DNA of 47,980 nucleotides from Planctomyces sp. SH-PL62. Lineage in GTDB: Bacteria; Planctomycetota; Planctomycetia; Planctomycetales; Planctomycetaceae. The notes under the pieces were generated by a model. It had not been told where the DNA came from. It ran no database searches and saw nothing but the letters and a program-made list of their open reading frames with translations. Shown here piece after piece: positions 1,287-46,628 of the stretch. Within the stretch, counting starts at the first letter, position 1. The number at the start of each line of letters is the position of its first letter. The stretch covers positions 1-47,980 of the forward strand of contig CAMDPX010000025.1 in NCBI GenBank assembly GCA_945905295.1, given 5' to 3'. The position numbers and the translations under genes are program-made.

Positions 1287-1644
1287 GTTCGTCTCCCTCA
1301 CGCAGAGAAGAATATCACCTCCACCGCCCACACGTTCGGCGAAGGTCGCCAAGCATGAGCCGAGCACATCAGCGAATCAACCACCAGCGGTTCGACGTCT
1401 CAACCAATACCGGCACGCTGGTGCATAACCTATGTCGGGATGATGCGTGTCGGAATGCTCGATGAACACGCAAGCCAAACTCATGTCACCACAGCTCGTT
1501 GCCAGCCGTTCGATCAAAGCACAGAGTGAGCAGCGACTTCTTGCCATCCTGGTTGAGTTCCGAAGTGACGAACACTCGGCTTTCTGCCAGCTTTGTTTTC
1601 CCCACGAGAATGGTGCGTTGTTCGGATTGCGAATTCCGTGGTCG
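1287..1644. other. Gap without a supported gene
   Basis: Only short open frames are found (for example 1377-1670 minus and 1447-1650 plus), none with a recognisable domain or convincing start. It lies between the peptidase and the 3' end of the nuclease-transposase fusion and may hold the outer end of that insertion. I could not see an IS66-type terminal inverted repeat. Confidence 0.5.
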
Positions 1645-4572
1645 TCATGAGCTTGGAATCGGTTCCGCACTTCCCCCGTCCAAATGAGTCGACTTGTCCG
1701 AGACCAACGCCGTCGCCGAGTTATTGTTCTGTGGTTGGTGCTTCTTTGCTGTCTGTCGCCGGCTTCGACGCGATTGCATCCAAGTTGGTGGGTGTAATTC
1801 GATAGTCAGTGGTGGCTTTCGCTGTCTTCGGCTGTTGCGAAACTTCTCGATATCCGTTTCCCGCGACAGAAGAAATCTGAGGAAACTGACTCGTTTGTAT
1901 TTGCAGGTCAGGTAGATGCTCAGCAGCACCAAATAATCTTTGAGTCCAGACTCCTTGACCATTCCATCGGCATATTCCCGGTAGTAGGCGAAATGCTTAA
2001 CGGCGTGCTCTGCGTTGTTGTTGTTCCAGGGCACGTCGTCGTGATCCACGAACGTGAAGAGCTTGTCCCGGTTTTTCAGGAGCCGCGTGCGATAGCCTTC
2101 CGCAACCTCTGATCGAAACGGTTGCCTCGCGATGCCCTCAAAGAAGCGTCCGATGGATCGCTGGTGTTTGCTGAGGTGCTGCCGTTTCAGTCCGTGTCGG
2201 TCGATGGTGGTGACAATCGCACGCAGCAACTTTCCGAAGCTGTCGGCGAGCGATTTCAATTCCTCGTCCCAAGGGTTGCCTCGGATGTCCTGATTGAAAT
2301 CCCTGATGAGGTGGATCAAGCATTTTTGCTGCGGGCAATCCAGCGAGTCGTACGCCGCGTAGAAATCGGTCACGAGCACTCCCCGAAAGCTCTTCAGCAG
2401 ATCATGCAGAAAGTCTCCCTCGCGAGACGCTCGGTACATGAGCACGACTTCCTCCAGATTTGTGAAGATCCAGACGTAGCCCTTACCAATCTGCTTGATA
2501 TGGAATTCCGTCTCGTCGGCGTGAATCAGGACTCCGCTCGCGATCTTTTCCACGAGTTTTTCGTATGTCCCCGCGTAATAGTTGGCCAACTCCCTTTTGA
2601 ACTCACAGACATCCGGGGTCGTGATAGGCAGGCCAAAACAATCTCGGAGGCTTTCCGCGACGTGCGCAAAGGGCTTCCGGTGAGCCACATACTCATAGAT
2701 GGCCCAGCTCTTCAGTGAATGAAAATGCTCAGCAACTCGATGGTATTCGTCGGCAAGAAACTTCTTTTGGCAACGGCCACAGCAATACCAAGCGGATGTG
2801 ATCCGCGTGACAGACCTCCGAATCCCTGTGCGGGTGACGAGAAGATCGTACGCCAGACGAGCCAACCGCCCATCGATCCTCTTTGCGAGGTCCGTCGCTC
2901 CGCAAAACGGACATTTCTCCGCCGTGATTTCGACAATGCGGTTAGGTCGAAGGTTTTTCTTGCCCAGTTTTCGGCGCTCCTGCCTTCGACTCTTTCTCAA
3001 CGTCTTACTCGTCCGGATGAAGACTCTGTCGCGCTGATAATCAAAGTACGCACGGTCGTTGACGAACTCGAAATCGGGAATCGCAAATTCGATTTGGCAC
3101 CATTCTCGACGGCTCGATTGTGGGGCGATTTCCTCCACCCGACAGACCTGATTTCCCTCGTGGTTGAGACCAGTCTTCACTGCGGGTTCCGCGCGGCAGG
3201 TAGTGACGAGCACTTCCGTGACCCGTTTGAGAGCGGCACAGTCCTCCAGATTGTAAGTCAAGAGTCTGTCCTTGTACGTCGAAAGGCCGCCTTCTTCCCA
3301 CCGTCTGCGCCAGACGATGCTCTGGATTCCCGATGCATCCAATTCTGTCCATCGGAAGCCAAGGTAGCCGGCAATGTCTTTCAGCCCATTCGAGTACGTG
3401 GGAAAGTAGAAGTGCGAGTGAATGACGGAGAGAACGTTTACCAGGCGACCAAGAATCTTCTCGCCTAGTTCTGGCTGGCCGGAATCCTTGCTCATCCGCT
3501 TCACGAATGCGGACTCATAGCTGCCGTACGCGTACAACAAGTACGGTTCGTTGCGATCCAAGATCTCACGAAACTGTTGGAAGATCCGGACTTCGTCGGC
3601 GGAATTGTCCGCCCAAAAAGAATGATGCTCCTGCGCGCCGTTTTGCTCGACGATCATCCCCACCAAATACACGAAGTTGCGTTCCGGATCGCCTTCGAGA
3701 TCAAGATAAATTTGGGTGGGCGAGACGGGTAATTCCGGAGAACCGAGAACGTGGATCTTCTTTTCGCGGATGGCAAGTGCCTGCACAGCATGTTGGCGAG
3801 CTGACGGCTTCTGCTTCAGTGGCTTGCTGTTTCTCCTGGGACGGAATGTGCAAGACAATTGAGTGACCGTGAAAATCCCTCTGCGGGCATACTTCTTGAT
3901 CTCACTCTCGGACATTGCCCGCAGCAGGCTTAGGTCATCTTTGGATGCCGCCTCTGCATGGCAGCGGCAACGAAACTCACAGATTTCGCAGTGTCGATTG
4001 AGCATCAACTGCGGCAGCGTATCCGACGCTCGACTCTCCTTGAGTTCTTGGAGGACTCGCTGTGCCTGAACACCGTTCGATCGGAGCCGCACTCGGCGGA
4101 TCGTGCAATCGTGACCATAGACAAGTAGTCCCCAGCGCGGCTCCGCACCCTGAATCTCCGCCAAAATCAGGCCGAGTACTTCCAGTAACGTCCGCTGCTC
4201 CCTGCCGGGCCTTTCAGTTCCGTGGAACAGTACCGGGAGATAGTGGAACGCCCCCAACTTCGATGGGCCATGAGCGCGTTTCAACCCGTCGAAGACCAGC
4301 AACATCTGATCGTTGTCCAACACCGCATCGAAGACGTAAGAAGCCCCTCGCTTCAAGGTAGACGTTGAGAGCACAACATCCCTTTCGATTTCGTCCGCAG
4401 ACAAGTTGGCAACGATTTTGTCAATCGCCTTGCGCTTCACCCGATCGCGCGCTTCGAGCAGCAGGATCTCAAATTCCGACTTGGTGCCTGCCTGCGCCGC
4501 GAGTTTGAGATGTGCCTTGAACTTACAGTTCAAATACGACTCAACAACTTCCGAAGTGAGCTTTGTGGCCAT
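1645..4572 (-). CDS. TM0106/RecB-like and RNase H-like nuclease fused to IS66-type DDE transposase
   Basis: This 975-residue protein joins two families. Residues 1-240 match the COG2251/TM0106 RecB-like fold, including a four-cysteine cluster (C195, C198, C202, C204) as in Fe-S or zinc nucleases. Residues 285-460 match a YprB-type RNase H-like domain, with DLEGD (D291, E293) and YNLEDC. From about 540 there are zinc-ribbon CxxC pairs and an IS66 transposase core with DDE residues D686 (ADET), D736 (VTDFYAAYD) and E855 (NNNNAEHAVK). In the RecB-like part the usual YExxDxK segment reads YLPVLFH, so the canonical Glu and Lys seem lost. The ATG at 4572 (MATKLTSEVVESYL) is chosen over a GTG at 4593 because it begins the conserved region. 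The gene follows the methyltransferase in the same direction by 69 bases. No IS66 accessory genes or terminal repeats are visible. I believe similar long proteins occur elsewhere, but cannot verify that here. Confidence 0.85.
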   Translation of the reverse strand: MATKLTSEVVESYLNCKFKAHLKLAAQAGTKSEFEILLLEARDRVKRKAIDKIVANLSADEIERDVVLSTSTLKRGASYVFDAVLDNDQMLLVFDGLKRAHGPSKLGAFHYLPVLFHGTERPGREQRTLLEVLGLILAEIQGAEPRWGLLVYGHDCTIRRVRLRSNGVQAQRVLQELKESRASDTLPQLMLNRHCEICEFRCRCHAEAASKDDLSLLRAMSESEIKKYARRGIFTVTQLSCTFRPRRNSKPLKQKPSARQHAVQALAIREKKIHVLGSPELPVSPTQIYLDLEGDPERNFVYLVGMIVEQNGAQEHHSFWADNSADEVRIFQQFREILDRNEPYLLYAYGSYESAFVKRMSKDSGQPELGEKILGRLVNVLSVIHSHFYFPTYSNGLKDIAGYLGFRWTELDASGIQSIVWRRRWEEGGLSTYKDRLLTYNLEDCAALKRVTEVLVTTCRAEPAVKTGLNHEGNQVCRVEEIAPQSSRREWCQIEFAIPDFEFVNDRAYFDYQRDRVFIRTSKTLRKSRRQERRKLGKKNLRPNRIVEITAEKCPFCGATDLAKRIDGRLARLAYDLLVTRTGIRRSVTRITSAWYCCGRCQKKFLADEYHRVAEHFHSLKSWAIYEYVAHRKPFAHVAESLRDCFGLPITTPDVCEFKRELANYYAGTYEKLVEKIASGVLIHADETEFHIKQIGKGYVWIFTNLEEVVLMYRASREGDFLHDLLKSFRGVLVTDFYAAYDSLDCPQQKCLIHLIRDFNQDIRGNPWDEELKSLADSFGKLLRAIVTTIDRHGLKRQHLSKHQRSIGRFFEGIARQPFRSEVAEGYRTRLLKNRDKLFTFVDHDDVPWNNNNAEHAVKHFAYYREYADGMVKESGLKDYLVLLSIYLTCKYKRVSFLRFLLSRETDIEKFRNSRRQRKPPLTIELHPPTWMQSRRSRRQTAKKHQPQNNNSATALVSDKSTHLDGGSAEPIPSS

Positions 4573-4641
4573 AGCGAAAACCTGAGAGCACACCGGGTGC
4601 CACTGGCGAGGGGCTTCGCCGATTGCCAGGAGGCGATCCAG

Positions 4642-6777
4642 TCACGCATCTTCAAAGAGCAGCTTCTGTGGTGGCGGACGGCGGCGGACTGGTTCACTGG
4701 GGGCGAGCGCGTGGATGTCATCGTCGATGTGACGTGCGATGGACTCGAAGTCATCAGGGGCGCGGAGCAAGGTGAGGAGTTGGCCGAGCAGCACGATGCG
4801 GCGGTCGTTGAGGGACAAACTAAAACCTTCCGCGTACAGACGCAGGAGTTTCTTCCTCGCGGAAGCCAGTGCGTCCGACTCAGTGGGAGGAACGATGTGG
4901 GCCATCGTGTCTCGTTTGCGGCAGACGAGGATGATGTCGAACTGGATTGGCTCCTTGGCCTGCGACTTGGGAGTCGCGACGGACATCTCGGCCTTGACCG
5001 GCTGCGAGTTCACGACGAGGAAGCCCGCTCCAAGAATCGCCTTCGCCAAGGACGCCCAGCCTTCGTGGCGCGAATGGTGATAGCTGAAGACCAGCAAGCC
5101 ATCGCCTCGTAGCACGCGATGGCATTCGCGGAAAACGCCTTGCAACTTCTCGGCGAACTTATCGGCGTCGGCGTCTTGAACCTCGGAGAGATGACGTGTT
5201 GTGGAGCCGGATGAGGGCTGCGATCGGCTCCCCATCTGCTGCCACGCGAAGAAGAAGTCGGCCAACTCTGAGTAATGGACGTTGTCGAAGAACGGCGGGT
5301 CGGTCACGACGAGGTCGATGCTCTGATCGGCTAAGCCGGTGATCGACGAATCGCCGCACGACAAGTAGATGCCGCGCGGAGCCAAGTCGCCGTTGGTCGG
5401 CCATTGCGGTTCGATCCGTCCCGTGAAGGCTGGCGAGCACTTGCGGGCCTCGCCGCTGTGGCCATTCACTTCGGTCGGTTGCTCGCGGTACTGCACGGCT
5501 CGTAGCAATCGCGAGGGGAACAGCGTCGAGAACGAGCCGGAACTCTTCGGTGTGCCCCACACGTTCGCTTCGATGGGCGTCCGCTCCGGCTTGAGGATGT
5601 GGTGCGAGAACATGTGCCGCACCGCGCCGGTCCCTTCGCCTTTGTAAGACGCGAAGAGGTTGTTGAACTCCAGCACGCCGGAGAACAGCGTCAGCATCGC
5701 GCATCGAGCTGGCAGGTCGTCGATCTTCAAGATCGCCGCGCGCAGCCAGCCGAGCGCGAGCAACTGCCGGTCGTTGAAGAAGTCGTGCCACGACGTGAAG
5801 CCGTAGCCCATCGCTTGCCGCGTGTTGTGACCGTACTCCAACGCGAGGTCGGGCAGCGTGAGTTCACCCGCCTCGACGGCGCGACGCAACTCGACCGAGC
5901 ATTGCTCATACGCCGCGAGGTCGTCGGCAGTCGCTCGCAGATATTCTTTACGACCGTCTTTCGTCAGGACCAGCTTACCATACAGCCGAAACGCGGGCCG
6001 AGTTTTTTGTTGGGCGATCACGTCGAGAATCTTGAAGTCGCAGTTGCAGCTTCCGCAGTGTCCCTTGGTGCCTCGCGCGGTTCCGGTACTTGGATCGAAC
6101 GGATGTCCGCACTCTGTGCAAGTCGCCGCGTCGTCGCCATGCAGGCCGGGGGCGATGTCGCCGCAGTTCGGGCAATAGACTTGGACTTCGGGCTTGCGAT
6201 CCGGATAAGCGTTGCGTGCGATCACATAAGACGGAAACAGATCGACGACCCGCGAGCAGTCGGGGCAAGTGGCCTGCATGACCCAGAACGAATACAGCAC
6301 GTCACACGGCCGACCCCGCTTGTCGATCGAGCGGTAGAGCTGCCGAATCTTCGGAGCGATGTCGGCTTCGAGCTGCGCGAACGCGGCCTGCAACTCGTGC
6401 TCGCTTAACGGCCCCAACGCCGTCGTGACCGCTTCGACGGCGACCGGATTGATGTCGCGTCCGAGCGCAGTGAAGCCCAGCTTGTGAGCCTCACCGACCG
6501 TCGTCCCCGATCCCATAAACGGATCGAACACAGTTTGCCCTGCGAATGCGTGCGAGCGATAGAACTCGGTGGCCAAGTTCGCGGACGTCGGCAGTTGGCA
6601 TCCCAACAAGATGCCGCGAAAGACCGAACCCAAGCGCTTCGCCCACCATTTGTGGACGTGATAGATCGGGCGATGAATCTCTTTCCGCCAACTCTCGCGC
6701 TCGGCAAGGTGTGAGAGGAACTCGAACGGAAAATCATCGGACTCGATTAGCCGTGCTTCAGTGGTCGCTGTCATCAT
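4642..6777 (-). CDS. DNA methyltransferase with zinc-ribbon insertion (modification subunit)
   Basis: The 711-residue protein has the SAM-binding motif I FDPFMGSGTT (D85) and the catalytic motif IV DPPF (D493), the order seen in amino-methylating (N6-adenine or N4-cytosine) enzymes of the alpha or gamma arrangement. The roughly 400 residues between them include several CxxC pairs (CPDC, CPNC, CTEC, CGSC) that look like two zinc ribbons. The N-terminal KWWAKRLGSVFR block resembles large methylases of the DUF1156 type. Start: GAGGAGG lies immediately upstream of tandem ATGs at 6777 and 6774. The gene overlaps the end of the upstream endonuclease gene by about 20 bases, so the two are translationally coupled. 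It most likely protects host DNA from that endonuclease. The target sequence cannot be inferred. Confidence 0.85.
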   Translation of the reverse strand: MMTATTEARLIESDDFPFEFLSHLAERESWRKEIHRPIYHVHKWWAKRLGSVFRGILLGCQLPTSANLATEFYRSHAFAGQTVFDPFMGSGTTVGEAHKLGFTALGRDINPVAVEAVTTALGPLSEHELQAAFAQLEADIAPKIRQLYRSIDKRGRPCDVLYSFWVMQATCPDCSRVVDLFPSYVIARNAYPDRKPEVQVYCPNCGDIAPGLHGDDAATCTECGHPFDPSTGTARGTKGHCGSCNCDFKILDVIAQQKTRPAFRLYGKLVLTKDGRKEYLRATADDLAAYEQCSVELRRAVEAGELTLPDLALEYGHNTRQAMGYGFTSWHDFFNDRQLLALGWLRAAILKIDDLPARCAMLTLFSGVLEFNNLFASYKGEGTGAVRHMFSHHILKPERTPIEANVWGTPKSSGSFSTLFPSRLLRAVQYREQPTEVNGHSGEARKCSPAFTGRIEPQWPTNGDLAPRGIYLSCGDSSITGLADQSIDLVVTDPPFFDNVHYSELADFFFAWQQMGSRSQPSSGSTTRHLSEVQDADADKFAEKLQGVFRECHRVLRGDGLLVFSYHHSRHEGWASLAKAILGAGFLVVNSQPVKAEMSVATPKSQAKEPIQFDIILVCRKRDTMAHIVPPTESDALASARKKLLRLYAEGFSLSLNDRRIVLLGQLLTLLRAPDDFESIARHIDDDIHALAPSEPVRRRPPPQKLLFEDA

Positions 6778-7546
6778 CGACCTCCTCGACGGCCATTGCG
6801 TCTTGAGCAACGCGCATCGCAACGGGATCGGTCGGAGAACCCTTCAATCGCCACGCTGAAAACAGATGCTCGCGGCCTGCGTGCGGGTTCGGCACGTTCG
6901 TCGGTCGCAGTTCATTGGTTTGCAGGTCGAACGAGTACGCAATCACCAACTCGTCGGCCTCGCGGCGACACAACTCGCCGACGCACACGAACTCACGACT
7001 GAGCTTCACTTCCGCTGGCAAAATCAGCGTCTGTCGGTGGGCCACGCCGTCCACCAGGCGAAACGGAGTCGGCACGACATACATCTTGCGATCTCGAATC
7101 AGGAGGTCGCCGTAGCTGCCGAAGCCTTTCACGCTCTTGTTGTGATGGATGTAGTCGTGATCCGCATTCAAGAAGTCGCCGTGGCAGACGACGAGATCAA
7201 GGACCGGATAAGCATTTCCATCCGGCTGCTTGGGATATCGCCCAAAGACATAGTAGATCGCGCGACCGTTGTGCGATCCGGTCGGCACTTGGCTGTTGCT
7301 GTCAAAGCTCGCGTCCCGCCCCGGATAGGCCAGTCCCTTCAGTTCATAGCCGTCAGTCGTAGCCACCATGCGGAAGTCGGGGTAACTATTTCGACCGCCG
7401 ATCTCGAAGTTCTGCCCCGCGTGTTCCAGACGAGCCTTGAACCAGTTCTGAAAGTGGAATTCCTTGTCTGTGCTGCTGACGCGATGGATCAACTCGCCAG
7501 CGAGAATCGCTTCCACGCACACCTTGAAAACATCCTGAGCAGACAT
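6758..7546 (-). CDS. PD-(D/E)XK restriction endonuclease-like protein
   Basis: The 262-residue protein contains a canonical PD-(D/E)XK active site: YPDF (D57) followed ten residues later by YELKG (E68, K70). No DNA-recognition domain is recognisable, which is normal for type II endonucleases, whose sequences diverge rapidly. Its end overlaps the start of the methyltransferase gene, so gene order is endonuclease then modification enzyme in one transcript. An AAGG lies 4-8 bases before the ATG. Role and pairing come from the motif and context; the sequence does not show whether the pair is a classical type II system or part of a larger defence cassette that includes the nuclease-transposase gene downstream. 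Confidence 0.75.
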   Translation of the reverse strand: MSAQDVFKVCVEAILAGELIHRVSSTDKEFHFQNWFKARLEHAGQNFEIGGRNSYPDFRMVATTDGYELKGLAYPGRDASFDSNSQVPTGSHNGRAIYYVFGRYPKQPDGNAYPVLDLVVCHGDFLNADHDYIHHNKSVKGFGSYGDLLIRDRKMYVVPTPFRLVDGVAHRQTLILPAEVKLSREFVCVGELCRREADELVIAYSFDLQTNELRPTNVPNPHAGREHLFSAWRLKGSPTDPVAMRVAQDAMAVEEVDDDSDH

Positions 7547-7720
7547 CGGCCTTGGATTCCTTTCGTCGTCGATCCGGTCGTCACGCAGGGGCGGAGAAAA
7601 ATTTGAAGAGGCTTCGCGTGTTCGGTGTTTGGGTCATGTTATTCGATTTCTGTTTGAGGCAACACTTCCTGTGGCAGCGATCCGTGTTGACCGAGTGCGT
7701 TTCTGGCGAGTGGAGGCCGA

Positions 7721-8069
7721 TCACAGATATTGGCGGAACCACGCGAGCACGCGGCGCGACATGTCGAGCAGATGTGGGCGTTCTTTGATCGCGCGGTCTT
7801 CTCGCGGATCGACGATGAGTTCGGTCGGCACGCTCTTGTCTTTGAGTGTGCGGTAAAAAGAGGTACGACTGCTCGACCGGCACGTCTTGGTCCTCGGCAC
7901 CGTGCGGAATCAGCGTCGGCGTGTTCAAGTTCTCGTGGTATGACAACAGGCAGAACTTTTGAAATCTTCCGGCGGGTTCATCGGGCGACTCGGCGTAGTG
8001 GATCGCATCCCAATCGGCGAGCGAACTCTTGGTGATGAGACCCGGATGGGTTGTAGCTGGCGTTATCAT
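7721..8069 (-). pseudogene. Remnant of S9 (prolyl oligopeptidase) family peptidase, C-terminal part, frameshifted
   Basis: One frame reads NTPTLIPHGAEDQDVPVEQSY, the typical S9 segment around the catalytic Asp. It then loses the frame, and a second frame continues with ELIVDPREDRAIKERPHLLD and RVLAWFRQYL before a stop at 7721-7723, the usual S9 C-terminus. The catalytic His position (normally PREGHG) reads PREDRA. The upstream two thirds of a normal S9 peptidase are absent, so this is a decayed fragment, not a sequencing slip in an intact gene. Confidence 0.75.
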
Positions 8070-8137: not shown

Positions 8138-8983
8138 ATGTGCCAATACAGGATTTGGAAATGCGGTCTAGTCTGGTTCGGATTGGCCCTGATCCCCTCA
8201 CTGGCCCGTGCCGAGGGTCTGGATTATCCACTGACGGCAGTGGCTTCGGCCGATGGTCTGAGCCTGTTCATCGCCGATCTGAATCAACCCGGCCTCTGGA
8301 AGTTGAGCGACGGCAAGCTCACGTCGTACTTTCAGGCGTCGAAGAAATTTCGCACGCCGTTGAACCGGGTCCGGTGCGTTGGGCTGGATCGAAACGGCAA
8401 AGTTCTCGCGGGGGATTCGTCCACGCGTGAGGTCTTTCGCTTTGACGATGAGGGCAAACCACAGCCGCTGACTAACGGTGGGATCGGCATTCCGATGGAC
8501 TTGGTGGTCGATCCCGACAACAACATTTTTGTCACCGACCTGGAACTGAAATGGATTTGGAAGATTCCCGCCGCCGGTGGCAAGGCGGAGAAATTCGCTG
8601 AGGTGGATGCTCCGCATGGTCTCGCGATCGACGCGGACAAGAATCTGTGGGTGGTCTCGCATGGCAAGCATCAACTCGTGCGAGTCACGGCCGAAGCGAA
8701 AGTGGAGATCGTCGTGGAAGGCCGGCCCTGGCAGTTTCCGCATGAAGTGGAACTCGACAAAGACAAGACGGCGTTCGTCACTGATGGCTATGGCAAAGCG
8801 GTCTGGAAGGTGCCCTTCGGAGGCAAGCCGGAGAAAGTCGTCTCTGGCGAACCGCTGATGAATCCGGTGGGCCTGACTTGGCAGAACGGCAAGCTGTTGG
8901 TGATCGATCCGCGCGCGAAAGGCTTATTCGCCGTGGACTCGTCTGGAAAACTTTCACCGGTTCCAACGGCATTGGAAAAGTAA
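8138..8983 (+). CDS. Secreted NHL/SMP-30-like beta-propeller protein
   Basis: The 281-residue protein starts with a Sec signal (MCQYRIWKC, hydrophobic core, LARA|EG). It then shows repeated strands of the kind G-x-P-x-D-L-V-V-D-P-D-N-N-I-F-V-T-D, typical of NHL or SMP-30/gluconolactonase propellers. The ATG at 8138 is preferred to an in-frame ATG 57 bases upstream because it places the signal peptide at the N-terminus. No enzyme motif is evident; it probably binds a ligand or partner outside the cytoplasm. It precedes a DUF1501 gene, which is followed by a second secreted propeller protein. Confidence 0.75.
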   Translation: MCQYRIWKCGLVWFGLALIPSLARAEGLDYPLTAVASADGLSLFIADLNQPGLWKLSDGKLTSYFQASKKFRTPLNRVRCVGLDRNGKVLAGDSSTREVFRFDDEGKPQPLTNGGIGIPMDLVVDPDNNIFVTDLELKWIWKIPAAGGKAEKFAEVDAPHGLAIDADKNLWVVSHGKHQLVRVTAEAKVEIVVEGRPWQFPHEVELDKDKTAFVTDGYGKAVWKVPFGGKPEKVVSGEPLMNPVGLTWQNGKLLVIDPRAKGLFAVDSSGKLSPVPTALEK

Positions 8984-8995
8984 GAACCTGTCTCC

Positions 8996-9108
8996 GTAGG
9001 GTGGGACAAGGTCGCTTCGAGCGCCGGCCCACCAATCGCTCTTTCATTGATGGCGTTGTTTATCGGATGGTGGGCCGGCGCGGCGAAGCGCCGCTGGTCC
9101 CACCCTAC
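8996..9108. repeat. Palindromic intergenic element, family B (GTAGGGTGGGAC)
   Basis: The element begins gtagggtgggacaaggtcgc and ends with its near complement, ggtcccaccctac. A second copy at 11743-11881 shares both arms but has a different and longer middle. It lies between the propeller gene and the DUF1501 gene. Confidence 0.9.
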
Positions 9109-9159
9109 AAACTGCGGCGTTGGCGAAGTAAGGCGCACGCCCTTGGGAGCTGATCCGAC

Positions 9160-10584
9160 ATGTCGAGTGTCGCCACATCGCTGCCAAAGCTTCGGTCAGA
9201 GACTCGTCGCCGAGTGTTGCAGGTGGGGACTCTCGGATTGACGGGGCTAACGCTGGCGCATGCGCTGCGGGCCGAAGAAGCCAAGACGCTCCGATTGGAA
9301 TCTTCAACCATCGGTTCGTCGCGTGCGAAGGCGTGCCTGCTGATTTATCTCGATGGTGGTCCTAGTCCGATCGACCTGTTTGATTTGAAGCCAGAATCTC
9401 CCGCTGAGATTCGCGGACCGTATCGGCCGATCGCCAGCAGCGCACCGGGTGTGACCGTCGGCGAGTTGCTGCCGCGCGTCGCTCAGCAGATGCACCGGCT
9501 GGTGCAGATTCGGTCGGTGCGGCATGACGAGGGGGTGCATGATCCGGCCGTGTATCAAATGCTGACGGGTTACAAGCATCTCAGTTCGTCGGGCGGATTG
9601 AAGGTCGAGCCGACCGACTTGCCACACCTCAGCAGCGCGTTTTTGCGAGCTGACAAATCTCCCACTGCGATGCCGAAAGCGATTCAGCTTCCCGAGATCA
9701 TGAAGATGGAATCTCGTGTGCTGCCTGGCCAGAACGGCGGCATTTTGGGACCGTCGTTCGATCCTTTTCTGGTCGAGTTGTCGATGAGCGGTGTCGTTCA
9801 GAAGCCGCAGCTTCACCGGGCCGACGGTGTCTCCGTCGATCGCTTGCGTCGCCGCTCGATGCTTCTGCGAGAGTTCGATCACGACTTGAGCCGGCTGCGA
9901 CATCTCGCGACCGAACGGCTGGATTCTTACCAGCAACAGGCGTTGTCGATTCTGGAATCCTCCGCTGTGCAGCGTGCCTTCGACATGGAAGATGAGTCTC
10001 CGGAGACACACGACAAATATGGCCGACATCGGCATGGTCAGTCGGTGTTGTTGGCTCGGAGATTGATCGAGGCGGGAGCGAAGTTCGTCACCGTCTATTG
10101 GGGCCACGAGGATCAAGACTGGGCGGACGGGCGCGGCCCGCGTCCGGCGAACAATCCGTGGGACACGCATCGCAATCATTTTCCGCTGCTAAGCCAGTCG
10201 CTCGCGCCGCGAGCGGATCAAACGCTCGCGGCGTTGCTGGAGGATCTCGCACGGCGCGGGTTGCTCGACGAGACGCTGGTGGTCTGGATGGGAGACTTCG
10301 GCCGGACGCCGCGCATCTCGAAGCCGTGGGCCAGCCGCGATCACTGGCCGGGCGCGAACACCGTGTTGCTGGCCGGAGCGGGCTTGCGCGGCGGCACTGT
10401 TTTCGGCGCGACCGATCGGCACGCCGCCGAGGTCATCACCGATCCGGTCTCGCCCGGCGATCTCACCGCGACCATGCTCGCCGCGCTGGGTGTCGATCCC
10501 ACGCAATACATCTCCGATGCCAGCGGTAAGCGACATCGCGTGTCGCCCGGTCAATCGTTGTGGGATCGTTTGCCGCTGGCGTGA
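9160..10584 (+). CDS. DUF1501 family Tat-exported protein (first of four)
   Basis: This 474-residue protein has a twin-arginine-like N-terminus (ETRRRVLQVG, then a hydrophobic stretch ending LRAEE). It carries the DUF1501 hallmarks: LDGGPSPIDLFDLKP, the HD-rich segment near the HDEGVHD motif, WDTHRNHF, and MGDFGRTPRIS followed by RDHWPGAN. DUF1501 belongs to the alkaline phosphatase/sulfatase superfamily, and the conserved Asp and His residues look like metal ligands; biochemical function is unknown. GGGAG lies upstream of the ATG. In planctomycetes these genes commonly sit beside DUF1549/DUF1553 cytochrome genes. Here the neighbours are two secreted propeller proteins instead. Confidence 0.88.
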   Translation: MSSVATSLPKLRSETRRRVLQVGTLGLTGLTLAHALRAEEAKTLRLESSTIGSSRAKACLLIYLDGGPSPIDLFDLKPESPAEIRGPYRPIASSAPGVTVGELLPRVAQQMHRLVQIRSVRHDEGVHDPAVYQMLTGYKHLSSSGGLKVEPTDLPHLSSAFLRADKSPTAMPKAIQLPEIMKMESRVLPGQNGGILGPSFDPFLVELSMSGVVQKPQLHRADGVSVDRLRRRSMLLREFDHDLSRLRHLATERLDSYQQQALSILESSAVQRAFDMEDESPETHDKYGRHRHGQSVLLARRLIEAGAKFVTVYWGHEDQDWADGRGPRPANNPWDTHRNHFPLLSQSLAPRADQTLAALLEDLARRGLLDETLVVWMGDFGRTPRISKPWASRDHWPGANTVLLAGAGLRGGTVFGATDRHAAEVITDPVSPGDLTATMLAALGVDPTQYISDASGKRHRVSPGQSLWDRLPLA

Positions 10585-12559: not shown

Positions 12560-12618
12560 AGCCGCAGGGCGCTAGCCCCGGTTTGTGCCATCCGAACCGG
12601 GGCTAGCGCCCTGCGGCT
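12560..12618. repeat. Palindromic element, family C (GGCGCTAGCC), intergenic copy
   Basis: Perfect arms agccgcagggcgctagcccc and ggggctagcgccctgcggct surround a short loop. It lies between the sigma factor gene and the kinase gene. A related palindrome sharing the ggcgctagcc core lies inside the kinase coding region at 13437-13508. Its transcript would form a very stable hairpin and might attenuate kinase expression, but there is no T-run, so it is not a classic terminator. Confidence 0.9.
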
Positions 12619-17558: not shown

Positions 17559-17609
17559 CCCCAACTCTCGCGTTCCTCCGCCTTTGGCGGAGGAACGCGA
17601 GAGTTGGGG
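17559..17609. repeat. Long perfect hairpin
   Basis: A 24-base arm starting ccccaactctcgcgttcctc pairs perfectly with its complement across a 3-base loop. It lies downstream of the dehydratase and upstream of the transporter. With no T-run on either side it is not a standard intrinsic terminator; it resembles the other mobile-looking palindromes of this window. Confidence 0.9.
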
Positions 17610-33109: not shown

Positions 33110-33832
33110 CTATTCCTTCTTCTCGTCGGCCTTCTTCTCGTCCTTCTTTGCCGCGTCGTCCGCAGCCTTCTTATCGGCAGCGGCTTTGTCGTCGGCAGCC
33201 TTCTTCTCGTCGGCAGCCTTCTTCTCGTCGGCAGCCTTCTTCTCGTCAGCAGCCTTCTTCTCGTCAGCAGCCTTCTTCTCGTCAGCAGCCTTCTTCTCGT
33301 CGGCAGCCTTCTTATCGGCAGCGGCTTTGTCGTCAGCAGCCTTCTTGGCGTCAGCAGCCTTCTTCGCTTCGGCATCGGCCTTGGCTTTCGCTTCGGCGTC
33401 GGCTTTGGCTTTCGCGTCAGCGGCGGCCTTGGCGTCAGCAGCTTTCTTCGCGTCGGCGTCGGCCTTGGCTTTCGCCTCGGCGGCGGCTTTGGCATCGGCC
33501 GCTTTCTTTGCGGCGGCGGCTTTCTCTTCGGCAGCCTTCTTCGCGGCGGCACCGTCTTCGACCGGCGGTGGCGGAGCGGCCTTCTCTTCGTACGCCTTGG
33601 GCTTGGCATCGCTCGGCGAGGGGGTCATCGGAGCCGCTGCGCCGGTCGCGCAAGCTGCTGCTGGCTGACAGCAGGTCGGGGCCGCTTGCTTGCAGCAAGT
33701 CTGAGCGACGGGTTGGCAGCAGGTCACTTTGACCTTCTTGCACTTCACGGGTTTGCAACAATCTTTGGCGGAAGTCGCCGCGGGCAGGAACAGTCCGGCT
33801 CCCGCAATCAGGCACCACATTGCACGCTTCAT
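33110..33832 (-). CDS. Secreted Cys-rich and Ala/Lys/Asp-repeat protein
   Basis: The 240-residue protein starts with a signal peptide (MKRAMWCLIAGAGLFLPAAT SA). A Cys-rich segment follows (CCKPVKCKK, CCQPVAQTCCKQ, CCQPAAACA). After a short Pro-rich hinge, about 150 residues are nearly all Ala, Lys, Asp and Glu, including seven KKAADE units, forming a long charged alpha-helix or coiled coil. The lead cysteines could cross-link chains or bind metal. The pattern suggests a cell-wall or envelope-spanning fibre; no enzyme motif exists. The gene has a strong terminator. Confidence 0.8.
   Translation of the reverse strand: MKRAMWCLIAGAGLFLPAATSAKDCCKPVKCKKVKVTCCQPVAQTCCKQAAPTCCQPAAACATGAAAPMTPSPSDAKPKAYEEKAAPPPPVEDGAAAKKAAEEKAAAAKKAADAKAAAEAKAKADADAKKAADAKAAADAKAKADAEAKAKADAEAKKAADAKKAADDKAAADKKAADEKKAADEKKAADEKKAADEKKAADEKKAADEKKAADDKAAADKKAADDAAKKDEKKADEKKE
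33186..33313. repeat. 18-base tandem repeat in coding sequence
   Basis: About seven copies of an 18-base unit (gccttcttctcgtcggca on the plus strand, some with tcagca) encode KKAADE. The array is flanked by near-identical direct copies of gccttcttatcggcagcgg, so copy number may vary by slippage or recombination. Confidence 0.85.
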
Positions 33833-41826: not shown

Positions 41827-41991
41827 GTAGCCTGACTCTCCGAGTCGGGACTTTCACGAACGCATTCCCGACTCGGAGAGGCTGTGAAAGAATTGGTAGC
41901 TGAACTCGCCAGAGTTCAGTTTTCTCGGCGAATTCTGAAGTCTGGCGACTTCAGCTACCAAAAAGGTCACAGCCTCGGAGAGTCAGGCTAC
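41827..41991. repeat. Nested palindromic element
   Basis: The outermost arms, gtagcctgactctccgag at 41827 and its perfect complement ending at 41991, enclose two smaller palindromes: cgagtcggga with tcccgactcg, and ggtagctgaactcgcc with ggcgacttcagctacc. The last arm contains the stop codon (41988-41990) of the lipB-like gene. Confidence 0.88.
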
Positions 41992-45820: not shown

Positions 45821-45831
45821 CGGAGAAGGCA

Positions 45832-45914
45832 AAGAGCCCGACGAATCGAAGGAGACGACGAATCCTGACAACTACCGACATTCGTCGTCTCCTTCGATTC
45901 GCCGGGCTCCTTTT
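45832..45914. repeat. Long hairpin, possible terminator
   Basis: A 32-base arm (aagagcccgacgaatcgaag and on) pairs almost perfectly with the arm ending cgccgggctcctttt. It lies 11 bases after the helicase stop. The right end runs into TTTT, so it could terminate helicase transcription, although the stem is far longer than usual and fits the palindromic-element class of this genome. Confidence 0.85.
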
Positions 45915-46545: not shown

Positions 46546-46628
46546 GGCGAGCGGGGCGGCGTCAGCCCCCCGGTTGAGTTGTCGTGATCATCGCTGAACA
46601 CCGGGGGGCTGACGCCGCCCCGCTCGCC
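46546..46628. repeat. Palindromic intergenic element, family A, complete copy
   Basis: The arms are identical in sequence to the copy at 32526-32613 and are perfectly complementary, while the loop differs. It lies between convergent DUF420 and zinc-ribbon protein genes. Confidence 0.95.

Follow-up and report, generated by a model that had tools for sequence, protein, structure and literature searches.

A conserved bacterial fusion of Cas4-like, exonuclease and IS66-type transposase modules, and its possible role in moving small elements at gene 3' ends

What would a transposase do with a nuclease half of its own, and does a protein built in this way move DNA? The question is raised by a 47,980-bp stretch from Planctomyces sp. 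SH-PL62 (assembly GCA_945905295.1, contig CAMDPX010000025.1, positions 1 to 47,980; hereafter the window), which encodes on its reverse strand, at 1645..4572, a 975-amino-acid (aa) fusion protein composed of a Cas4-like domain with an apparently dead active site, a DEDDy exonuclease, a zinc ribbon and an IS66-type DDE transposase. Here we describe a real and conserved protein family, and tentatively propose, with a probability of about 45%, that it is the mobility enzyme of small elements (about 3-6 kb) located at the 3' ends of genes and often carrying one addiction or defence module. No published title or abstract opening that we found names this fusion.

Results

The fusion is genuine, rare and widespread

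A first-pass annotation, made from the sequence alone, had placed a TM0106/RecB-like half and an IS66 half on one frame, and profile searches agree. The frame is unbroken, starts with ATG at 4572 (an alternative GTG at 4593 would give 982 aa) and is present once in the source genome. The TM0106 family profile TIGR03491 covers residues 6-453 (E 4.5e-70; 236.9 bits, above the cut-off of 97.45) and PF13482 residues 288-455 (E 4.3e-25). On the transposase side, the IS66 profile PF03050 covers residues 619-870 (E 1e-28; 101 bits for a cut-off of 23.1) and NF033517 residues 528-901 (E 1e-47), the latter with 163 bits, below its cut-off of 180.

One scan of 84,980 species genomes gave 151 places encoding the fusion, and the best 80 of these 151 were kept as loci (numbered with L). 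All 80 run from the exonuclease into the DDE domain, so that homologues do share both halves. Locus counts leave out the window itself (L001), L015 (the same as L014), L082 (the same as L041, the two being identical over 4.6 kb), the fragment L085 and, in most cases, L083. A second copy, 94% identical, is found in L002, a Planctomycetia metagenome-assembled genome (MAG), and this copy together with the 80 loci spanning both parts indicates that the protein is not an assembly fusion. Compared with L002, the gene has a ratio of nonsynonymous to synonymous changes (dN/dS) of 0.15, with both halves below 0.18. Broken frames do exist among relatives (13 of 85 loci have frames shorter than 860 aa, at contig ends or interrupted), yet nothing of this kind affects the window gene. 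With the invariant residues described below, these data refute an assembly artefact or a decaying pseudogene, to which we leave a negligible chance.

The two halves seem to have a shared history. They co-vary (Mantel r 0.75, a value reached by none of 1000 permutations), and the 25 fusions sampled group together in each of the two trees, with support of 100/100 for the DDE half and only 89/74 for the nuclease half. The DDE half is separated from ordinary IS66 transposases by a stem of 2.18 changes per site. A single origin of the fusion is favoured by these trees.

The fusion protein is rare yet widespread in bacteria. According to record titles, hosts include planctomycetes, verrucomicrobia, acidobacteria, proteobacteria, nitrospirae, bacteroidetes and cyanobacteria, many of them MAGs. 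In the window's phylum both halves were found in 4 of 392 genomes (rows read by eye), and in two further phyla in 2/387 and 2/347 genomes (E<=1e-120, query genome included). Most carriers have the gene only once (12/21 and 18/20 genomes). No identical copies were seen within a genome, although MAG assembly may hide them, and the closest pair noticed in one MAG, L023/L062, is 90% identical over 1.3 kb. Two contigs hold two diverged fusion genes in tandem: L055 (3719-6748 and 7203-9413) and L017 (from 3209, and 8648-9943). Plasmid copies appear in three records, two with at least 80% coverage. A phage origin was considered and is unsupported: neither phages nor viral contigs gave a match, the viral contigs having been queried with six short peptide patterns only.

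A dead Cas4-like domain, an intact exonuclease and an intact DDE core

Residue conservation was counted over 70 full-length proteins (at least 860 aa, the window's included and the duplicates L015 and L082 removed). One model of the whole protein was built from 56 aligned relatives (mean predicted local distance difference test, pLDDT, 84.7) and contains Cas4, polymerase-type 3'-5' exonuclease and DDE transposase folds; the predicted template modelling score (pTM) is 0.53, and the mutual placement of the domains is therefore unsure.

Residues 1-211 (3940..4572, on the reverse strand like all parts of the gene) have a Cas4 fold, aligning with the Cas4 of 7mi4 over 184 residues (VIA-align Z 16.6, root-mean-square deviation 2.9) and matching Cas4 in PADLOC (E 4.6e-7) and in PDB 8d3l (E 6.1e-6). 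The four-cysteine cluster of the first-pass annotation holds in part: C195, C198 and C204 are found in 70/70 proteins, while C202 is not conserved and the true fourth member is C16 (61 of 62 ungapped rows). This set, C16/C195/C198/C204, is that of Cas4 and is predicted to bind an iron-sulphur cluster. Fold and cysteines are thus present, but the active D, (D/E)xK and Q residues are not. We compared the fusions with nine other TM0106 proteins, two of them about 500 aa long and the other seven 916-1031 aa. The D...D-x-K...Q pattern (the Asp, D-x-K and Gln of a PD-(D/E)xK site) is kept in eight of the nine, L087 being the exception, whereas (D/E)-x-K is absent from all 27 fusion rows shown and from five fusions aligned with the TM0106 proteins. 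Likewise, the Asp of the VDL motif is present in 9/9 comparators and replaced by Asn (N379) in 70/70 fusions. The suspected loss of the RecB-type acid and lysine is hence confirmed and, as the nuclease residues are gone, the Cas4-like part probably serves a structural purpose or binds DNA. L087 (a 916-aa frame in which no IS66 part was seen) also lacks D-x-K and Q and is possibly an intermediate form.

Residues 284-466 (3175..3723) have the fold of a DEDDy 3'-5' exonuclease, as seen in PF13482 and in family-B polymerase chains, which match this segment with Z of 13-15 (VIA-align). The signature (DxE, motif II acid, YxxxD) is complete: D291, E293, Y440 and D444 are invariant in 70/70 proteins and E353 is present in 91%. 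This supports the YprB-like domain proposed earlier and predicts exonuclease function. Given the dead RecB/Cas4 site, only the DEDDy domain is likely to act as a nuclease within the N-terminal half, in line with the earlier suggestion that the RNase H-like part does the cutting. It is followed by a zinc-ribbon-like Cys4 set at residues 554-601 (2770..2913), with C554, C598 and C601 in 70/70 and C557 in 98%, and by the IS66-type DDE core at residues 619-870 (1963..2718), identified by PF03050 and Foldseek. The triad read from the sequence, D686, D736 and E855, is invariant in 70/70. A Foldseek search with the whole model gave the ISCth4 transposase as top match (E 7.7e-8); since most VIA-align rows concern the exonuclease domain, Foldseek alone serves to assess the DDE half.

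Some fusion genes lie in repeat-bounded units at gene 3' ends

Direct repeats between the two flanks (E<=1e-3) were found in 17 of 83 loci compared to 1 of 26 controls, and exact direct repeats of at least 16 bp in 8/75 loci compared to 0/450 mismatched pairs. In nine of the 83 loci the fusion lies in a unit bounded by a 25-155-bp direct repeat at a gene 3' end. The unit of L046 (30-bp repeat, tRNA-Gly) holds the fusion with AbiEi/AbiEii, that of L035 (28-bp exact repeat, a tRNA end) the fusion with UPF0175/DUF3368, and that of L047 (25 bp, tRNA-Asn) a ParB-like helix-turn-helix (HTH) protein, Schlafen-AlbA_2 and the fusion. At tRNA-Glu genes, L029 (44 bp) and L048 (77-bp imperfect repeat, mostly just downstream of the gene) contain the fusion alone. 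Other units lie at protein-coding genes: an Mg-chelatase gene read as comM in L018 (143 bp at 82%) and L220 (28 bp), both with the fusion and a HigBA-like pair, and a class II aminoacyl-tRNA synthetase gene read as thrS in L219 (92 bp at 87%), with MNT/HEPN, the fusion and Uma2. In L218 a 155-bp repeat (89%) that overlaps the 3' end of a gene without assigned family is present in three copies (2879-3033, 6242-6396 and 7243-7397 of the reverse complement), which bound, side by side, a unit with the fusion alone and a separate PIN-toxin unit. No tyrosine or serine recombinase was seen inside the nine units (open reading frames [ORFs] read, Pfam run on part of them). In the other eight repeat loci (L003, L005, L022, L032, L052, L053, L074 and L076) the repeats are dispersed, distant, attC-like or of uncertain nature.

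tRNA ends (T-arm/acceptor) are found within 2.5 kb of 16 of 80 fusions, with 19 matches in 628 kb against 1 in 263 kb of control DNA. Two loci from different phyla according to record titles, L046 and L035, also have in common the sequence AAAGCACTTACG, located 6-8 bp inside the left repeat (positions 3801 and 2192, respectively), and L027 has a one-mismatch form, AAAGCATTTACG, at 3956, 17 bases after a tRNA end. CTCCA followed by the exact motif occurs in 1/347 and 1/337 genomes of two phyla, both being the source loci L046 and L035. Confinement of the motif to these loci weakly disfavours a common integrase site.

Toxin-antitoxin and abortive-infection genes are frequent neighbours

We scanned 215 of 219 selected flank ORFs, the four left out being pieces of fusion genes. 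By reading proteins, we found a toxin-antitoxin (TA), abortive-infection (Abi) or restriction-modification (R-M) gene at most 1.3 kb away in 26 of 78 loci (L002, L005 [ParE below cut-off], L013, L018, L020, L025, L035, L037, L045, L046, L049, L051 [lone antitoxin-like HTH], L052, L054, L056-L060, L067-L071, L073 and L080), a number that shrinks to about 21 after merging related groups and does not count L021, L036, L042 and L047. TA calls per locus were made by eye, with single Pfam runs for part of them. The neighbours are of many kinds: AbiE pairs, HigBA-like pairs, PIN/VapC, UPF0175-DUF3368, DUF5615, MqsA, Abi_2 and one methyltransferase. Four of nine loci fetched later also have such a module (a lone antitoxin-like HTH in L217, PIN in L218, MNT/HEPN in L219 and a HigBA-like pair in L220), and the Acaryochloris plasmid copy has VapC upstream of the fusion. 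For comparison, no TA pair was found among 108 small control ORFs from 253 kb of random stretches of fusion-holding genomes (37 of 40 stretches obtained, 30 long enough); these ORFs were of 65-210 aa, a size range that could miss larger TA proteins such as AbiEii. The control also contained a lone XRE HTH (L156), a RhuM-like piece (L179) and a Mut7-C protein, none of which was counted as a TA pair. TA and Abi neighbours are therefore shown to be in excess beside fusion genes. Type I R-M and C5-methylase families have one member each among control neighbours, and R-M alone is not shown to be enriched.

The window element is a transferred 6.0-kb block

In the window, the fusion gene belongs to a 6.0-kb block (1577..7580, reverse strand, ends uncertain by tens of bases) that is 93% identical in L002, where the flanks are unrelated to the window's. 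The unrelated flanks indicate that the block was transferred as a unit. Besides the fusion, the block encodes a DNA methyltransferase of 726 aa (PF01555; 4642..6822, reverse strand; 93.5% identical in L002) and a candidate restriction endonuclease of 262 aa (6758..7546, reverse strand), recognised by eye from a PD...ELK motif and without Pfam, NCBIfam or PADLOC match. Relatives of the 262-aa protein adjoin a methyltransferase on Tabrizicola and Acidiphilium plasmids, in stretches where no fusion is annotated. Compared with L002, dN/dS is 0.13 for the methyltransferase and 0.06 for the 262-aa gene. The pair would fit a stand-alone R-M module. In L002 we also noted remnants read as type I R-M on either side of the block (HsdM and HsdR; 133-960 and 7035-7313).

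The block is larger than the gene-sized span first suggested. Terminal repeats looked for at the borders of the gene were not found: 1300-1700 and 4560-4800 share no direct or inverted repeat of at least 10 bp. Nor do the borders of the block (1200-1700 against 7450-8000) share an exact 12-bp repeat or a 16-bp repeat allowing two mismatches, and a wider comparison yielded just two inverted matches (E 0.26). In L002 there is one 16-bp direct pair with two mismatches (about 6% by chance) and, farther out, a 31-bp match (E 0.003).

Elsewhere in the window we observed 41-bp repeats at 97.6% identity (8994-9034/11741-11781 and 32526-32566/47937-47977), palindromic repeats of about 50-120 bp resembling hairpins or miniature inverted-repeat transposable elements (12560-12618, 17559-17609, 41867-41987, 45831-45912 and 46546-46628), and overlapping internal repeats at 33115-33559, likely a tandem-repeat region.

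Inverted repeats are scarce and no TnpB is found

A first scan of 4-kb flanks returned 909 inverted repeats, mostly runs of N in L066 and L076, with 7 in the mismatched control. Once N was excluded, 17 inverted matches of at least 13 bp remained, many in L053, against 1 in the control. Exact inverted repeats of at least 14 bp occur in 3 of 75 loci (21 bp in L040, dispersed in L053, A/T-rich in L060) and ones of 13 bp in 9 of 75, where about 2 would be expected; imperfect or short repeats lie outside these exact-repeat thresholds. Local alignment of the sequences immediately within the known ends of six units bounded by direct repeats gave short chance-level matches and no inverted repeats, and counts of GTAAGCG are flat in the flanks of fusion loci. 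A dispersed repeat around GCAGCCGACGT surrounds the fusion genes of L053, L050, L071 and L081, with seven copies in the scanned L053 flanks.

IS66 elements carry beside the transposase an accessory gene, TnpB, that is missing from one IS66 subgroup. With tblastn (E<=1e-3), TnpB-like proteins had no match in 84 fusion loci (the window being represented by L002), whereas they are common to five of eight ordinary IS66 loci.

Discussion

How could such a protein move DNA? The dead Cas4-like domain might grip a DNA end or a single strand, the DEDDy exonuclease would trim the 3' strand, and the DDE domain would cut and join DNA. The element would bring its own copy of the gene's 3' end, and the host gene would then stay whole and a direct repeat of 25-155 bp be left behind. 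TA or R-M cargo would punish loss of the element; in the window, this cargo would be the methyltransferase and the candidate endonuclease. A protein that trims and joins, sites at gene 3' ends and a variable addiction module would together suit a self-mobile unit. One can go further and imagine that a DDE transposase equipped with a Cas4-like clamp and a 3'-trimming exonuclease acts as a site-specific integrase, inserting small units at the 3' ends of conserved genes, replacing the gene ends, stacking units as in L218 and building arrays of addiction modules without any integrase gene. This bolder version is speculative, a real though doubtful possibility, and, if true, would amount to a kind of recombination unlike that of tyrosine or serine integrases and unlike ordinary transposition.

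Several observations weigh against the fusion being a mobility enzyme. Long repeats of a gene's 3' end are the mark of tyrosine integrases, and DDE enzymes are not known to leave them. Tyrosine integrases are encoded near L013 (96 bp upstream), L014, L041, L045 and L068 (beside an IS91-like gene) and near the Acaryochloris and Calothrix plasmid copies, and one abuts the left repeat of L035 from outside. By eye, L022, L056, L059 and L068 resemble integron cassettes whose ends are attC-like, although a scan of fusion loci with a strict attC pattern found none. A gene-3'-end repeat is lacking in 74 of 83 loci, many of them on short contigs, and the repeats of L029 are the two ends of its contig, possibly an assembly overlap. 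Complete tRNA genes show no clear excess (10/81 fusion loci and 2/30 control stretches), neither tRNAs nor tRNA ends occur at the nine later loci, and the window element itself has no gene-end repeat, tRNA or detectable ends. The 21-bp exact inverted repeat that brackets the fusion gene of L040 (229 bp upstream, 74 bp downstream) is a possible transposon end. About one chance match per Gb is expected for the end motif, making its absence elsewhere a weak test. Finally, all loci were selected for having the fusion, and finding it in each unit is therefore no proof in itself.

Two other explanations compete with this proposal. In the first, a serious rival that we regard as a real though doubtful possibility, the fusion is cargo: a transposase-derived defence or interference nuclease that attacks invading DNA and is moved in trans by tyrosine recombinases, be they tRNA integrases or an integron integrase. 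The repeat structure typical of these enzymes, the integrases near L013, L014, L035, L041, L045 and two plasmid copies, and the integron-like context of four loci would all follow, as would the prevalence of single copies and the divergence of L023/L062. Defence-like neighbours and the position of the L002 copy between presumed type I R-M remnants point the same way and keep alive the possible defence role suggested in the first-pass annotation. Yet no integrase was seen inside the nine repeat-bounded units, L029 and L048 contain the fusion only, a search of 684 genomes from two phyla found the motif common to two ends nowhere else, and PADLOC yields Cas4 matches only.

In the second, which we consider unlikely, the protein belongs to an IS66-type insertion sequence that acquired a nuclease domain and transposes as DDE elements ordinarily do, its tRNA and TA context being a matter of hitch-hiking. 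The PF03050 and NF033517 matches, the DDE transposase fold with its triad intact in 70/70, the L040 repeat and the surplus of 13-bp repeats fit such an origin. Such transposition would entail terminal inverted repeats and short target duplications, which are of 8 bp in IS66 elements. Instead, the repeat-bounded units have repeats of 25-155 bp, inverted repeats of at least 14 bp are found in only 3/75 loci and inside the ends of none of six units, no TnpB was found in fusion loci while five of eight ordinary ones share one, identical copies were not seen (with the reservation on MAG assembly), and the DDE half stands on its long stem. Taken together, it is the integrase-like repeats, the nearby integrases, the cassette-like loci, the L040 repeat and the selection of loci by the fusion that hold the mobility-enzyme proposal at the probability given above, with a substantial share left for cargo and a small one for an IS66 element. 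Of the earlier proposal, the fusion as a conserved and functional one is supported, and a mobile element carrying its own nuclease is plausible; terminal repeats of the window element find no support.

The placement of these units at gene 3' ends may point to a novel mode of DNA insertion. If the fusion inserts DNA, targeted insertion by a single protein would explain how some lone TA or R-M units can move although no integrase is visible. If it is cargo, it would add a new candidate to the defence effectors of mobile islands. In both cases, a family that annotation labels only as nuclease or IS66 transposase becomes testable.

Compared with known systems, the fusion shares with IS66 transposases (PF03050, NF033517) the DDE core D686/D736/E855, the zinc-ribbon-like Cys pairs and profile matches, and differs from them by its Cas4-like and exonuclease modules, a sub-cutoff NF033517 score, no TnpB found, rare inverted repeats, a long branch and low copy number. 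With TM0106 proteins (TIGR03491) it has in common the whole N-terminal half, including the Cys cluster and the DEDDy residues; D-x-K and Q are lost, N379 replaces the VDL Asp, and a DDE transposase is added at the C terminus. Islands inserted in tRNA genes by tyrosine integrases resemble the repeat-bounded units in that they insert at gene 3' ends, replace the gene's end with a copy of their own and are flanked by direct repeats, but no tyrosine integrase was seen inside the nine units. In CRISPR (clustered regularly interspaced short palindromic repeats) adaptation, Cas4 and DnaQ-type trimming occur beside an integrase. The likeness to Cas4/Cas1/Cas2 (7mi4, 8d3l) lies in the combination of a Cas4 fold and a DnaQ/polymerase-type exonuclease with an enzyme that joins DNA; in the fusion, by contrast, the Cas4 part has lost its nuclease residues, an IS66-type DDE transposase takes the place of Cas1, and the modules sit in one chain. 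If the fusion does insert DNA, it would be a transposase turned into a gene-3'-end-specific integrase by the addition of trimming modules of the kind used in CRISPR adaptation.

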